From assembly GCF_009856865.1 (NCBI RefSeq), contig NZ_WVUD01000011.1, forward strand, positions 1-64,000: a DNA stretch of 64,000 bases, given 5' to 3'. Source of the stretch: Solidesulfovibrio aerotolerans. Its GTDB lineage: Bacteria; Desulfobacterota; Desulfovibrionia; Desulfovibrionales; Desulfovibrionaceae. A program made the translations under genes and the position numbers. The notes below the pieces were generated by a model. The model had not been told where the DNA came from. It searched no databases and saw only the letters and a program-made list of their open reading frames with translations. Of the stretch, positions 54,901 through 60,687 are shown in pieces. How positions within the stretch are numbered: position 1 is the stretch's first letter; the number at the start of each line of letters is the position of its first letter.

Positions 54901-55366
54901 CATCAAGGAGCACACCGAACCGGAACTGACCCTGGCCCTGCCTGCCCGCATCCCGGAGCGCTACGTGCCCGAGGCTTCGGACCGGCTGCGCCTGTACAAG
55001 GCCCTGTCCACGGCCCGTTCCGAGGAAGGGCTGGCCGAACTGGCGGCCGAGATGCGCGACCGGTTCGGGCCGCCGCCGCCGGAGGTGGACAATTTCCGGG
55101 CCGTTTTGGGTTTAAAGCAGGTGCTGGCCCGGTTGGGCGTGGCCAGGGCCGAGATTGCCCCGACCAAGCTCACTGTTTCCTTTGAGGGCGAAGGGGCGGC
55201 GGTCGAACCCCAGCGGCTGGTGGATTTTGTGGGCACGCATCAGGGCGCGCGCCTGCTGCCGCCGGGAAAGATCGTCCTGCCGGTGGATCAGACCCTGCCC
55301 TTGCCCGAGGCGCTATCGATTTGGGCCAGGGAACTGGCCGGGCTTGGCGAGGCAGGGACTCCGTGA
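51905..55366 (+). CDS. mfd: transcription-repair coupling factor Mfd
   Basis: An 1153-residue protein of normal Mfd length. Domains in order: UvrB-like N-terminal region, RNA polymerase interaction domain (GDLIVHRDYGVATFEGL and LYLPADRLGLLQRY, about 480-560), then the RecG-like motor with Walker A GDVGFGKTEVA (about 638), the DEEQ box in LLILDEEQRFGVKH and LTATPIPRTLQLS, and the C-terminal TRCF domain. It displaces stalled RNA polymerase and recruits UvrA. The start is set at an ATG followed by RPVLSRTPSP. No good ribosome site is visible. The last codon overlaps the next gene's GTG. Confidence 0.96.
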   Translation: MRPVLSRTPSPLADLLAGADSASVYKSGPATLAFLAVAALARGQSAVVVVPGMTELTRIAALLELLAPPSPGTLWGAPYATLPSYAPGRPSGAFWARRMAFLAFAAMGRGPRVLLVTADNLLPKWPPQRALEGNILNVALGEELPRDLIAEQAVLWGYKRSPMVTNPGEFALRGDILDIFPPGYDSPLRLEFFGDTVEAIRRFDAGSQRSLAELNEAALLPAAPAVLSDTFMDEARALWTTIAGTGELHRTAKQHLETCLETRDGGIWPGLFYEKPVELSAWFPEDAAYLVSDPTKVKERLEEAEHAWRRFFEAETKERGHPWPTSRVLWPENMARKSLVAGRRILFEDLVMGRGRHGPDLPEKVVEHFGDIFWKPGSDKRPWTTLVASLKDWNRQGQTILSFHGERSRKKFLQMIEPEGLAFRTSYAPGETGLFALISTLRHGMELSWRDTRILAEDILHPESAKAGGERGRDKDFKGLASFDDIRPGDLIVHRDYGVATFEGLTRMTVDATGGDYLLLVFADEDKLYLPADRLGLLQRYKGPEGISPPLDRLGGARWKSIRERAKKAIERIAADLVEMYAYRQVAKGYAYGPTNELYLEFEATFGFEETPDQERAINEVLADMERPEPMDRLVCGDVGFGKTEVALRAAFRAVLDGKQVAMLCPTTVLAEQHYQNFAARLEGFPVRVEMLSRFVSPKRRKVVLESVARGQVDILIGTHRILSSDVTIPNIGLLILDEEQRFGVKHKERLKAFKKNIDALTLTATPIPRTLQLSLSGVRGLSVIETPPVDRKTVETALVERDEGFLREVIKRELERQGQVFWVHNRVQGLEDVTAYVKTLAPGAKVAMAHGQMSETALEEAMHGFWHGETDILVCTSIIESGLDFPRANTLIVDNAHMFGLGQLYQLRGRVGRSPRQAFAYFVVPSIEKVPELARKRLRVILDMDYLGAGFQVAMEDLRLRGAGNILGEAQSGHIARIGLDMFLEMLSEEVRRLKGEPIKEHTEPELTLALPARIPERYVPEASDRLRLYKALSTARSEEGLAELAAEMRDRFGPPPPEVDNFRAVLGLKQVLARLGVARAEIAPTKLTVSFEGEGAAVEPQRLVDFVGTHQGARLLPPGKIVLPVDQTLPLPEALSIWARELAGLGEAGTP

Positions 55367-57111
55367 GGGCTGTGCTTGGCCGGTTGCTGCGGGGTGGGGC
55401 GGGCTGTTGCCTGCTCGCGGCCTGTCTGCTGGCCGGCTGTCTGGGGGAGAACCCCGAGGAGTCGGGGGTGGTGGCCGTGGTCAACGGCGCACCGATCCGT
55501 CTGGCTGCCCTGGAGGCCCGGCATGAGGTCGGCCGTCTGGGCATGCCCGCGTTTGAGAATCCGGCGGTTGAGGAACTGCGGACCGAATACGGCGCAACCC
55601 TGGCCGATCTGATTGTGTCCCGGCTGGTGGCCCAGGAGCTGGCCCGGCGCAAACTGTCCCCGACGTCCCGGGAACTGGTCGAGGCCGAGGAGGCTGTGCG
55701 GGCCGATTATCCGGGCGACGCCTTCGAGCGCCTGCTCCTTGAGGAACACCTCGATCTGGCCCGCTGGCGGGCCATGCTGGCTGATCGGCTGGCCCAGGAA
55801 AAATTTACGCGGGAGGTGCTGCGCCCCACGCTCCGGGTGGGGGTTTCCGAAGCGGCCACCTATTACAAAGAACATATCAATACCTTCACCAGACCGGCCT
55901 CGGTCCGGGTTCTGGTTGTTTCGGGGCGCGACGCGGATGCGGTCAAGGCGCTTCTCGCCAAGGCCCGCAAATTGGGCCAGGGGGAGGAGGCGGGGGCGGG
56001 CATCGCCCAGGCCGTGCTGCCCGAAGCCGGCCTCCCCGCCGCCTGGCGCGACGCCCTTAAGGGCCTTAAGCCCGGCGAGGCCACCCCGCCCTTGCCCTCG
56101 GGCCGGGAGCAGATCGGGCTGGTCCTTCTCGAGCGCCTGCCGTCTGCCGTCCTTGATCCGGCCAAGGCCTACGCCCGGGTCGAAGCCCTGCTGGCCGAGG
56201 AAAAGCTGACCAAGGCGTTTGCGGCCTGGCTGGCCGAGGCGCTGGCCGCAGCGCATATCAGCATCAACCGCCAGCTTCTGGCCGAGGGGAAGTCGCCGGA
56301 GACAGGGCCGGCGTCCCCATCGGCCCAGGCCGGCAGGCAGCCGGAGCAGACGGAAATCGAGACTGCCCGGGCCGAGGATGCGGCGCGGGCCTATGTGGCT
56401 GCACAGGCCCAAAAGACCCTGGCCGACAAGCGGGAAGCCGCTGCCGCAGTGCCGGTGGCGTCGGGGCAGACGGTGAGCCCGGCCGCCGTCCCCCTGTCGC
56501 CTGGGCCGACCGGAGCTGGCGGAGCGGGCCTGCCTGTCGTGGCCGGGGAGACGATACCTGCCGCCGAGCCTGCTGCCGCCCCCGGACAGCCGGAGCAGGG
56601 GGCCGAAGCCGCGCCGCCCCCGGACCTGACCCCGGCCGCGCCGCCGGTTTCGGCCGATTTGGCCCCTGTTGCCATTGCTACTCCGGCCGTGCCACCGGTT
56701 TTGGCCGAACCGTCCCATGCCGCCACCCCTGGGGCGACAGCGCCCGCCACCGCGCCGTCCGGCCTTGGTGCTCCCGTGCCACCGGCTGCCTCGCCGTCGC
56801 ATGATGCAGCGGTGGTTGCCGCCGCCGGTGATGCGCCGGCCTCCCTGCCGGCACCGCCCCAGGCGCTCCAGGCCCCGGCCGGCGGCGAAGTGGAGTTTGT
56901 TGCGGTCAAGGCCAGCTGGATTCTCTACATCGTGGATGAGGGCCAGGAGGAACGGGTCTATCTCAAACCGGGAAAACCCCAGCGCATCGCTTATAGCCGA
57001 CGGCTGGTCGTGCGGCTTGGCAGCCCAAGCGAAGTGACCTACCGCGCCGGCGGCCGCGAGGCCACCGTGGAAGTCGGGAGGAAAGAAAGCCGGGTGCTTG
57101 AATTTCCCTGA
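55363..57111 (+). CDS. PpiC/SurA-like lipoprotein with a RodZ-type C-terminal domain
   Basis: A 582-residue protein with a lipoprotein signal: basic and hydrophobic start, then LLAGC, so acylated Cys at about 27. A SurA/PrsA-like chaperone and parvulin-like region spans about 30-310 (VVAVVNGAPIRLAALEARH, then helical arms). A long Pro/Ala-rich linker runs about 320-505. The last 75 residues (WILYIVDEGQEERVYLKPG then VVRLGSPSEVTYRAGGREA, ending LEFP) resemble the C-terminal domains of the RodZ-like protein at 58370. The start is a GTG overlapping the mfd stop (GTGA). The fusion is unusual, see findings. Confidence 0.8.
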   Translation: MRAVLGRLLRGGAGCCLLAACLLAGCLGENPEESGVVAVVNGAPIRLAALEARHEVGRLGMPAFENPAVEELRTEYGATLADLIVSRLVAQELARRKLSPTSRELVEAEEAVRADYPGDAFERLLLEEHLDLARWRAMLADRLAQEKFTREVLRPTLRVGVSEAATYYKEHINTFTRPASVRVLVVSGRDADAVKALLAKARKLGQGEEAGAGIAQAVLPEAGLPAAWRDALKGLKPGEATPPLPSGREQIGLVLLERLPSAVLDPAKAYARVEALLAEEKLTKAFAAWLAEALAAAHISINRQLLAEGKSPETGPASPSAQAGRQPEQTEIETARAEDAARAYVAAQAQKTLADKREAAAAVPVASGQTVSPAAVPLSPGPTGAGGAGLPVVAGETIPAAEPAAAPGQPEQGAEAAPPPDLTPAAPPVSADLAPVAIATPAVPPVLAEPSHAATPGATAPATAPSGLGAPVPPAASPSHDAAVVAAAGDAPASLPAPPQALQAPAGGEVEFVAVKASWILYIVDEGQEERVYLKPGKPQRIAYSRRLVVRLGSPSEVTYRAGGREATVEVGRKESRVLEFP

Positions 57112-57300
57112 GCACGGGCAGCCAGGCATCGGTGGGCACGATTGCCTGGGGTGGCAAAAACGTTTATAGGCCCCAAAAGCGTGGTTGCGCCGGCCTGGGA
57201 GTGAGGACGCCGCAGCTTTGCTGACGTAACCGGGGCAGTGCCGGACGGGCGCGGTGTGTCTCTTGCACGCGGCCGACGCCGCCTCACCATGGAGGATACT

Positions 57301-58296
57301 TTGCCGCGACTGCCAAAAATTTTCTGTATACTCGGATTGCTGGCCGCATTGGCTGCCCCGGCTGGTGCCGCCGAACTGGTGGATCGGGTGGTGGCGGTTG
57401 TCAATGGCAAGCTCATCACCTTGTTTGACGTCAACACCAAGGTCGTCGATGTCGTCCAGCGCACGCAAGGTGTCGCGCTAAAGCCTGGCGATCCCCGGGT
57501 GGATGAGTTGCGGCGTCAGATGCTCGACAGCATGATCACTGAGATGCTCATCGAAGACGAAGCGGCAAGGATGAAGATTAACGTATCGGAAACTGAAATT
57601 GATACGCAGATTGATGAACTTAAAAAGAAGAACTCGCTTTCCCAGCAACAGCTCGTGGCCGAGTTGGCCAAGGAAGGGTTGACGCTTAAGCAGTTCCGCC
57701 AACGCATGCGTGACGACAGCATGCGTAAGCGTCTTCTTGGCTTCATGGTTCACCGCAAGGTGTTGGTCACTGAAGACGAAATCCGTGACTATTACGAAAA
57801 AAACAGGGGCAATCTCCCGACGGCCAAGTCTCTCCTTGGCCCGAAAGTGACGGGAACTATCGGCTTTATCATGGTCCCTTCCAAAAAGCAGGCCGATGAA
57901 CTGCGGGCCAAAATCAATTCCGGGGGCATGAGCTTCGCCGATGCCGCCAAAAAGTTTTCCATCGGTCCCGGCCGCGACCAGGGCGGCGATCTGGGCGACG
58001 TGCAGGCCAAGGATCTGGCCGCCCCTTTGCGCGATGCCCTGAAAGCGGCTCCGGCCGGACAGGTCAGCGAACCGGTGATGCTTGACGGCAAGGCCGTGCT
58101 GCTCATGCAGCGCTCGGACAAGGCCGCCCCGGCGCAGCCTGCCCCGGCACCTGTTGCCGCCGCGCCTGCCGGCGGTTCCTACGAGGGTGCCCGGGAGCAG
58201 ATTCAGGAATTGCTGTACAAGCAGAAGTTCGACAAGATCTTTCAGGAATACATCGAGAATCTGCGGTCCAAGGCTGTGATCGAGGTCAAGCTGTAG
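57301..58296 (+). CDS. SurA-like periplasmic peptidyl-prolyl isomerase/chaperone
   Basis: A 331-residue exported protein. The signal peptide is LPRLPKIFCILGLLAALAAP followed by AGA. The chaperone N-domain (AELVDRVVAVVNGKLITLFD, typical SurA start) is followed by arms and a parvulin domain (about 190-280) with GGDLGDV-like GRDQGGDLGDVQAKDL, and a C-terminal helix. It folds outer membrane proteins in the periplasm. Start chosen at TTG 57301 because GGAGG is 5 bases before it. An ATG at 57289 without a ribosome site is the alternative. It lies 189 bases after the lipoprotein gene and 73 before the RodZ-like gene. Confidence 0.88.
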   Translation: MPRLPKIFCILGLLAALAAPAGAAELVDRVVAVVNGKLITLFDVNTKVVDVVQRTQGVALKPGDPRVDELRRQMLDSMITEMLIEDEAARMKINVSETEIDTQIDELKKKNSLSQQQLVAELAKEGLTLKQFRQRMRDDSMRKRLLGFMVHRKVLVTEDEIRDYYEKNRGNLPTAKSLLGPKVTGTIGFIMVPSKKQADELRAKINSGGMSFADAAKKFSIGPGRDQGGDLGDVQAKDLAAPLRDALKAAPAGQVSEPVMLDGKAVLLMQRSDKAAPAQPAPAPVAAAPAGGSYEGAREQIQELLYKQKFDKIFQEYIENLRSKAVIEVKL

Positions 58297-58369
58297 CGCG
58301 CTTGTGATCGATCCGGCTGTCCGGGGGACCTCCCGCTCCCGGCGTGGCGGGCACAGAGGAGTTTTTTAT

Positions 58370-59851
58370 ATGGATTTGCGTGAGATAGGGACGATACTGC
58401 GCGAGGAACGGGAGCGACAGGGTTTGTCCCTCGATACGGTGTCGGACAGGATCAAGGTATCGCGATCCTGTCTTGCCGCCATCGAGGAAGGCAACGAAAA
58501 AACGTTGCCCCATCCGGTGTATGCGAAGGGATTCATTAAAAATTACGCCAAACTGCTTGGCGTTGACCAGGCTGAATTTAATGCCGGGCTGTCCACTGTC
58601 TATCAGACCGAAGAGACGCATTTTCGCGAGATCTCGTTGGTTTCCGACATCCCGGACGACGATTGCGGCTGCTCCGTGCCAACGTCCGCGCCGCGTCCGC
58701 CCTTCAAACTGATCGCTCTGGTCGGGGGCGGCCTGCTGCTCCTGCTTGGGCTGGGTTGGTTTGTCGTGGCCCATGTTTTTTCAGGCCCCGACGACCAGAC
58801 TCCGGCATCGGCAACCCCGCCAGCCGGGGATCTGGCTGGCCCGGTTGCCGGGAAATCAGCCCCCGCCACCGCGCCTGTTGCGCCGACCCCGGTCGTTTCG
58901 GCTCCTGCGCCGGTCGTGCCTGCCCCTGCGCCGGTCGTTTCGGCTCCCGCGCCGGTTGTCCCGGCCCCTGCGCCAGTAGCCGTCGTCCCGGTCGTTCCCG
59001 TCGCCCCGGCCCCTGTTGCCGAGCCGGCCAAGTCCGGTGCCGACGCCACCCCGCGCCCCGGCCTTACCCCCGAAGACCGGGCTACCCAGGACATTGCCGT
59101 CAGTGGCCCGGCCGCTGCGGTCCCGGCTGTGCCGTCTGCCCCGGACAACGTCCCGGCTCCGACGGCTCCGTCGGCCAAGAGCTTTACTGTCGGCGAGACC
59201 GGCCCTCATACCGTCGTCATTGCGGCCAATGAGCGCTGCTGGCTGCAGGCCGGGGCCGACGGCGGTTCCATGCACGAATCCATGTTGGAAAAAGGTGATA
59301 CCTTCACCGGCCGGTTCACCGACTATCTCCTGGTGCGCCTGGGCAACGCCGGCGCGGTGGAGATTCATTTCGACAACAAGCTGTATCCGCTTCAGGCCGG
59401 CAAAGGTGCCGTCAAGACGCTCAAGTTCGTGGCCAAAAAGACCGAAGGTGAGCCGGCCAAGCCGGCTGCCGGGACCGCACCGGCTGCGGGCAGCCCGCAG
59501 CCAAGTGTGCCTGTCACACCGGGTGCGCCGGGCGCGTCGGTCGCGCCAAGTGCGCCGGGCGCGAGCGCAGCGGCACCGGCGGTTGCGGCGGCTCCGGCTG
59601 TCGCCGAGGGAACGCCGGGCGGCAAGGAAGTGGAAATTTACGGCCAGGACGGCAGTTGGGTCATTGTCAGCCCGGATAAGGCCCCGTCCAAGGAAATCTA
59701 CGTCAAAAAGGGCCAGCGCATCAGCATCCCCTTTGGCGAGAAAATCGAGATCAAACTCGGCAATCCGAGCAGTGTGGTCTTTCGCTACGACGGCAAGGAG
59801 ACGCCCGTGAATACCGAAAAGGGCGGCGTCAAAACCATGCGTTTCCCCTGA
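58370..59851 (+). CDS. RodZ-like cell-shape protein with two C-terminal beta domains
   Basis: A 493-residue membrane protein. The N-terminal helix-turn-helix (IGTILREERERQGLSLDTV, HPVYAKGFIKNYAKLLGVD; about 1-75) is the RodZ cytoplasmic domain that binds MreB. One membrane helix is at about 110-135 (LIALVGGGLLLLLGLGWFVV). A Pro/Ala/Val-rich periplasmic linker (about 145-260) contains a 21-bp tandem repeat. Two beta domains of the DUF4115 kind follow (about 270-355 and 415-493), each with a WVIV/CWLQ start, a GxxxTG region and an end like VKTL(K/R)F. RodZ normally has one. GAGGAG precedes the ATG by 8 bases. Confidence 0.85.
   Translation: MDLREIGTILREERERQGLSLDTVSDRIKVSRSCLAAIEEGNEKTLPHPVYAKGFIKNYAKLLGVDQAEFNAGLSTVYQTEETHFREISLVSDIPDDDCGCSVPTSAPRPPFKLIALVGGGLLLLLGLGWFVVAHVFSGPDDQTPASATPPAGDLAGPVAGKSAPATAPVAPTPVVSAPAPVVPAPAPVVSAPAPVVPAPAPVAVVPVVPVAPAPVAEPAKSGADATPRPGLTPEDRATQDIAVSGPAAAVPAVPSAPDNVPAPTAPSAKSFTVGETGPHTVVIAANERCWLQAGADGGSMHESMLEKGDTFTGRFTDYLLVRLGNAGAVEIHFDNKLYPLQAGKGAVKTLKFVAKKTEGEPAKPAAGTAPAAGSPQPSVPVTPGAPGASVAPSAPGASAAAPAVAAAPAVAEGTPGGKEVEIYGQDGSWVIVSPDKAPSKEIYVKKGQRISIPFGEKIEIKLGNPSSVVFRYDGKETPVNTEKGGVKTMRFP
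58892..58975 (+). repeat. 21-bp tandem repeat in the RodZ-like linker
   Basis: Four imperfect 21-bp units in frame (58892, 58913, 58934, 58955) encode the heptapeptide V-V-(S/P)-A-P-A-P. Unit 1 and 3 and unit 2 and 4 are the closer pairs, so a 42-bp double unit may have been copied. Confidence 0.85.
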
Positions 59852-59937: not shown

Positions 59938-60687
59938 ATGGAATTTTGCGAACAGGCACTGGTACTTGCCGTACGGCGATTTCGGGAGATCGATGCCTGG
60001 GTACGGCTGCTTTCGCCGGTGCGCGGCGTCTATACTGCCTTTGCCTTTGGCGGCATGAAAAGCCGCCGCCGGTTCCTGGGCTGTCTTGACCCCCTTAACC
60101 ATGTCCAGTTCAAGGTGCGCCGGTCCGGCTACCGGTCCTATCACTGCCTGACCGAAGGCCGGCTTCTGGATTCGCCGCGGCAATTGCGCACCCATCCCCA
60201 GCGTCTGGGCATGGCGGTCAATTGCTTGAAATTTTTTGAGGCTGTGCCTATCCCGGCCCACAGCGCGGCCGAGGCCTACGCGCTTTTGCGCGAGCTTTTG
60301 GCCGCCCTGGATGCGGCCGAGGCTCCGTCGTCGCTGGTGCCGCTGCTGTTTCGGGCCAGGATGACGTTTGTGCACGGCATGTTGCCCGTGTGCGGCCACT
60401 GCGCCGCCTGCGGCAGGGCCCTTGGGGATAACGGGGCCGTGTGCCATGTCGAGGAAGGCAAAATTTTGTGCCCGGCCTGCCGCAGTGCCGCAAGCGGCGG
60501 CGTGCGCCTGCCGCTGTCCAGCGGGGCGCTGTCGCTGCTGGAGACTGCCGTCGCCCAGAGCCCGGACTGCTGGGCGCTCTGCCGGCCCCAGCCGACGGCG
60601 GCCAGGGAGTTTTCCCGGGCGGTCGATCTGCTGGTACGCTATCATATGGGCCTGGCCTGGGAGCAGGGCGGGTTTGTGCGGGCCTGA
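59938..60687 (+). CDS. recO: DNA repair protein RecO
   Basis: A 249-residue RecO. The N-terminal OB fold starts [20 protein letters not shown] and has the conserved [21 protein letters not shown] helical middle and a zinc finger follow ([12 protein letters not shown] and then CPACRS). RecO anneals ssDNA coated by SSB and loads RecA with RecR. It lies 86 bases after the RodZ-like gene and 85 before glyQ, and recO-glyQ-glyS is a common order. No strong ribosome site is seen before the ATG. Confidence 0.93.

Follow-up and report, generated by a model that had tools for sequence, protein, structure and literature searches.

A predicted lipoprotein of Solidesulfovibrio aerotolerans combines a SurA-like front part with a C-terminal RodZ_C tail, a new domain architecture assembled from known parts and found in two genera only, Solidesulfovibrio and g44. 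The tail domain (designated L3) is under purifying selection and is most closely related to a second, extra RodZ_C domain of the RodZ encoded two genes downstream, which suggests a helper docked near the cell-wall growth machinery. Neither a fusion of RodZ with a prolyl isomerase nor a duplicated RodZ domain was found in the literature searched.

Domain organization of the lipoprotein and RodZ

Within the window (the whole analysed stretch of 64,000 nucleotides), mfd, the lipoprotein gene, a surA-like gene, rodZ and recO are all located on the + strand. The lipoprotein gene (55363..57111, +) is an open reading frame for a 582-aa protein of the PpiC/SurA type (Pfam Rotamase_2, E 3.4e-8), and its GTG start codon shares bases with the stop codon of mfd (GTGA). 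It is followed by the surA-like gene (57289..58296, +; Pfam SurA_N, 4e-19; Rotamase, 2e-10), whose product is predicted to be periplasmic, and by rodZ (58370..59851, +), encoding a 493-aa protein (Pfam HTH_25, 6.9e-22; RodZ_C, 1.7e-20 over two stretches). The open reading frames and Pfam matches placed these genes, including the SurA-like gene between those of the lipoprotein and RodZ, where the original prediction had put them. The neighbourhood survey identified a conserved downstream neighbour (59938..60687, +), which we take from the gene order to be recO; its function is probably unrelated to rodZ or the lipoprotein gene. The numbers of promoter and terminator consensus sites in the cluster were not above chance.

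The lipoprotein starts with a signal peptide (55363..55440, +) containing the lipobox LAGC (residues 23-26), and Cys26 is predicted to be lipidated; a lipobox-like motif was found by pattern matching in 39 of 43 orthologues. AlphaFold modelling (pLDDT >90 for most of this part) and structure matches delimited a SurA chaperone core at 55459..56289 (+), into which a parvulin domain, probably degenerate, is inserted. Among structural matches to the front part, E. coli SurA scored highest (8pzv_F; Z 15.2, 169 residues at 3.1 Å), and Foldseek retrieved PEB4/Cj1289 and SurA with E ~1e-9. The predicted fold, composed of an N-terminal core, a parvulin-like domain and a C-terminal helix, is that of SurA, PEB4, Cj1289 and LIC12922. 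Among the 42 aligned lipoproteins, Pfam detected Rotamase_2 in 39 and SurA_N_3 in 30. There was no Pfam match to Rotamase (PF00639) in the lipoprotein, which hints at a degenerate isomerase site. The model and the lipobox bear out the claim of a SurA-like lipoprotein: the protein is predicted to belong to the SurA/PpiC chaperone family, with a SurA core and a parvulin fold, and its core may have chaperone activity.

The core is followed by a Pro/Ala-rich linker of ~140 residues (56455..56877, +; 82% P/A/G/S/T/V), which is predicted to be disordered (pLDDT ~34-46). SurA is soluble; compared with SurA-like chaperones, the protein described here is a predicted lipoprotein with a single parvulin-like domain lacking PF00639, a long linker and a RodZ_C tail. 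In its predicted lipidation it resembles PrsA, the lipid-anchored SurA/PrsA-like parvulin foldase of Gram-positive bacteria, but it occurs in a diderm host, carries the RodZ_C tail and is structurally closer to SurA (Z 15.2 vs 10.6).

The tail domain L3 comprises residues 507-582 (56881..57108, +) and was defined by alignment, profiles, a domain tree and AlphaFold. In local alignments scored against 2000 shuffles, L3 and the second RodZ domain (R2) gave a score of 123 (z 19.8; shuffle maximum 52), R2 and the first RodZ domain (R1) a score of 99 (z 18), and L3 and R1 a score of 48 (z 6.2). The window's L3 matched Pfam RodZ_C (PF13464, formerly DUF4115) at E 0.0065 with 16.8 bits, under the curated cut-off of 23.9, while the L3 of another genome (G123) exceeded it (25.6 vs 23.9 bits); RodZ_C was reached at E 0.01 by 8 of the 42 aligned lipoproteins. 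A profile comparison of the kind that the original prediction had proposed matched 12 L3 domains to 20 single RodZ domains taken from other genera with a probability of 98.3 and E 1.5e-14. Together with the shuffle test, this confirmed a third RodZ_C copy at the end of the lipoprotein. Judged by sequence, L3 is a true RodZ_C-type domain, and L3, R1 and R2 are of the same family as the RodZ_C (PF13464) of RodZ (YfgA). The lipoprotein itself is not a RodZ: HTH_25 was absent (Pfam) and only the C-terminal domain is common to both.

The proposed structure prediction was also carried out. L3 was modelled as an all-beta domain of eight strands (pLDDT 95.8), and the same fold was obtained within the full-length model. 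The solved RodZ structures identified by sequence search cover the HTH part only, with none for RodZ_C that could serve as an experimental comparison; for Bacillus subtilis RodZ, a compact all-beta fold of nine strands has been reported (PMC6946637). Foldseek found nothing similar to L3 at E 0.001; the top VIA-align match, TRAP, had a Z of 8.0, in the range that the tool reports as common. Matches to carbohydrate-binding modules (Z ~5-6) were given no weight, being no better than those to unrelated folds.

RodZ of S. aerotolerans has the parts expected of its family, with HTH_25, a hydrophobic segment (transmembrane helix) visible in the sequence and periplasmic RodZ_C, the last of which is present twice, as originally claimed. 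R1 (approximately residues 277-354; 59198..59431, +; Pfam E 1.9e-13) groups with single domains, while R2 (residues 417-493; 59618..59848, +; Pfam E 1.7e-7) is the sister of L3; both exceed the curated RodZ_C cut-off. The motifs said to unite all three copies (LKPG or VKKG, LGxPSxV and a final xFP) hold for L3 and R2 but not for R1, which has LEKG, LGNAGAV and LKFV. The usual Cys-Trp pair is retained in 15 of 16 R1 copies and is replaced by Ser-Trp in every L3 and R2 copy. Compared with the ordinary RodZ_C, the domain is thus doubled in RodZ and also terminates a lipoprotein chaperone, and L3 and R2 have Ser-Trp for Cys-Trp and LGxPSxV for LGNAGGV. The mean net charge is +2.7 for L3 and +2.3 for R2, against +0.2 for single domains. 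One more hit to RodZ_C in this genome, a weak one (C84, E 0.037), was taken as chance.

Distribution, origin and conservation of the tail

The locus was compared at 40 places, sampled at genus, family and order level. The gene order mfd-lipoprotein-surA-rodZ-recO-glyQ was widely conserved across the order, with lipoprotein orthologues at the equivalent position, and the lipoprotein was absent in some families; the surA-like gene was present in 58 of the 59 relatives searched. Conservation of the gene order, for which the original prediction had proposed a survey of the Desulfovibrionales, was found throughout the order, but the RodZ_C tail was limited to two genera, with none detected in the 28 lipoproteins examined outside Solidesulfovibrio and g44. 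The proposed linked module for outer-membrane protein folding and cell shape is supported only in part, since this gene order persists in species lacking both the RodZ_C tail and the second RodZ domain. Gene order alone was rejected as evidence for a module, being order-wide and including mfd, recO and glyQ as well.

At eight loci from several families and genera (L055, L056, L062, L063, L064, L067, L074 and L101) the SurA-like lipoprotein gene was missing, and in most of them surA lies close behind mfd.

A profile of L3, used on 348 Desulfovibrionales genomes, found full-strength L3 tails restricted to Solidesulfovibrio and g44, which are sister genera of sulfate-reducing bacteria, the former belonging to the Desulfovibrionaceae. 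When searched with a profile of ordinary RodZ domains, 13 of 14 Solidesulfovibrio genomes and all three g44 genomes of the 348 had three or more RodZ_C matches; the one Solidesulfovibrio genome without three is 69% complete, and one mixed genome has four. All other Desulfovibrionales genomes had at most one match, except for two g11 genomes with two. RodZ of g44 is likewise doubled, and the lipoprotein tail and doubled RodZ occurred together in each of the 16 genomes of these genera whose locus could be read. The fusion is thus present in relatives, whose lack of it would have refuted the original prediction, and co-occurs there with the doubled RodZ domain. In a search of 395 genomes of the phylum, at a threshold too strict for weak copies (the window's own L3 among them), more than one RodZ_C was found only in Solidesulfovibrio, g44 and a single further genome (near-identical score, second contig). 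No match was obtained in a plasmid collection.

The metagenome-assembled genome S. magneticus UBA7700 contains the locus twice, from two lineages (L039 and L049, G006; L084, L088). The rodZ gene of L049 appears chimeric, with R1 like that of L046 and R2 like that of L042, which indicates a mixed assembly or recombination.

In a tree of 77 domains, built from an alignment of just 80 columns and containing some long branches, L3 and R2 were jointly set apart by a branch supported at 100/96. The individual groups were supported at 100/99 (L3), 94/76 (R2) and 100/99 (R1). R1 fell among the ordinary single domains and is the orthologue of the single RodZ domain of other genera. L3 and R2 each formed one group within their joint clade, so their separation predates the split of the two genera. 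Descent of all three domains from the lineage's own RodZ was not rejected (p 0.32), and a clade of R1 and R2 was not clearly rejected (p 0.07).

The sequence of L3 is not drifting. In eight species pairs, dN/dS lay at 0.08-0.20 in L3, 0.08-0.34 in the core and 0.40-0.73 in the linker, and the mean identity within Solidesulfovibrio was 72% for L3, 63% for the SurA/parvulin part and 23% for the linker. L3 is therefore under purifying selection and is constrained at least as strongly as the chaperone core, whereas the linker is drifting.

Candidate roles of the tail

The sister relationship of L3 and R2, their co-occurrence, the constraint on L3 and the SurA fold match favour the view that the RodZ_C duplicate is a periplasmic docking module which brings a SurA-like chaperone close to RodZ and to the elongasome. 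We hold this view tentatively, at slightly below an even chance. RodZ_C would have yielded, in an ancestor shared by Solidesulfovibrio and g44, a second copy that is now present twice, as R2 and L3. The SurA core would bind unfolded envelope proteins, the lipid anchor would tie the lipoprotein to a membrane, and the linker, long and disordered, would allow L3 to reach a partner common to R2, either RodZ itself or another elongasome component. As a result, the chaperone would be concentrated where the envelope grows.

Published observations on RodZ and the elongasome speak for such docking. According to a review, fragments of E. coli RodZ without most of the cytoplasmic domain are still found at the division site, pointing to a partner of the periplasmic part within the periplasm, where RodZ also associates with itself (PMC6946637). 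A porin-lipoprotein complex in the outer membrane of Rhodospirillum rubrum, of which PapS is a component, traps RodZ-marked elongasomes (PMC11369160). PapS is an outer-envelope lipoprotein controlling RodZ-marked elongasomes, but the parallel is functional only; its domains are unrelated to those described here, PapS having an OmpA-like peptidoglycan-binding domain (PMC11369160).

Other observations weaken the docking view. E. coli can largely keep its rod shape without the periplasmic domain of RodZ (PMC6946637). The co-occurrence of L3 and R2 represents one evolutionary event and provides no independent replicates. The location of the lipoprotein is perhaps not conserved: the residue after the lipoprotein Cys is Asp in g44 (L089, L090, L091) and G/L/R/K in Solidesulfovibrio, and according to the E. 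coli rule Asp at +2 specifies the inner membrane, so membrane sorting may differ between the genera.

Docking to the elongasome is further weakened by beta-domain tails found on lipoproteins elsewhere. In g26 (L060, G043), the tail of the SurA-like lipoprotein consists of two PEGA domains (E 3.5e-11) in place of RodZ_C, and in g11 Pfam detected RodZ_C at the end of an unrelated lipoprotein encoded alongside a rhomboid-like gene (L105:1474-2523, -, and L106:748-1722, +, of genomes G291 and G023; E 4.7e-7 and 5.4e-5, with the second narrowly missing the cut-off). These cases show that small beta domains, RodZ_C included, joined lipoprotein tails more than once in the family, and they make general use in anchoring or docking a serious alternative. 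RodZ_C might be a small all-purpose envelope anchor, binding peptidoglycan, glycan or lipid, and L3 would then hold the chaperone to the wall with no relation to RodZ or cell shape. The replacement of L3 by PEGA in g26, the RodZ_C of a different lipoprotein in g11 and the mildly basic character of L3 and R2 agree with this explanation. However, the matches to carbohydrate-binding modules are weak, and the joint origin of L3 and R2 favours a common partner. We consider a general anchor less likely than docking, but the g26 and g11 cases keep it in contention.

It is also improbable that L3 works inside its own protein, as a lid or client-binding domain replacing the missing second parvulin domain of SurA. 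The protein has one parvulin-like domain with no Rotamase PF00639 match, a deficit for which an accessory domain could compensate, but ~140 disordered residues separate the core from L3, and the relation to R2 would be left unexplained. A functionless accident of duplication in the gene cluster, compatible with the confinement of the tail to two sister genera and an otherwise unchanged cluster, is contradicted by the dN/dS of L3 (0.08-0.20, against 0.40-0.73 for the linker, in the eight species pairs) and by its identity (72%, against 23%), and is highly improbable.

Any partner of L3 is a candidate for the partner of RodZ_C in general, and the fusion offers a direct experimental handle on this domain. 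Should that partner be part of the elongasome, L3 would physically connect the delivery of outer-membrane proteins with wall growth, processes that are coordinated in E. coli, where peptidoglycan matures before outer-membrane proteins are inserted (PMC9242858). A broader extension, which we regard as quite unlikely, is that RodZ_C serves periplasmic docking and is copied by lineages to lipoproteins, thereby tethering envelope-assembly factors to the elongasome. In Solidesulfovibrio it would then physically tie a SurA-type chaperone, and with it the delivery of outer-membrane proteins, to wall growth directed by RodZ. In E. coli, two genes lie between rodZ and yfgM/bamB, an arrangement that is suggestive at most.
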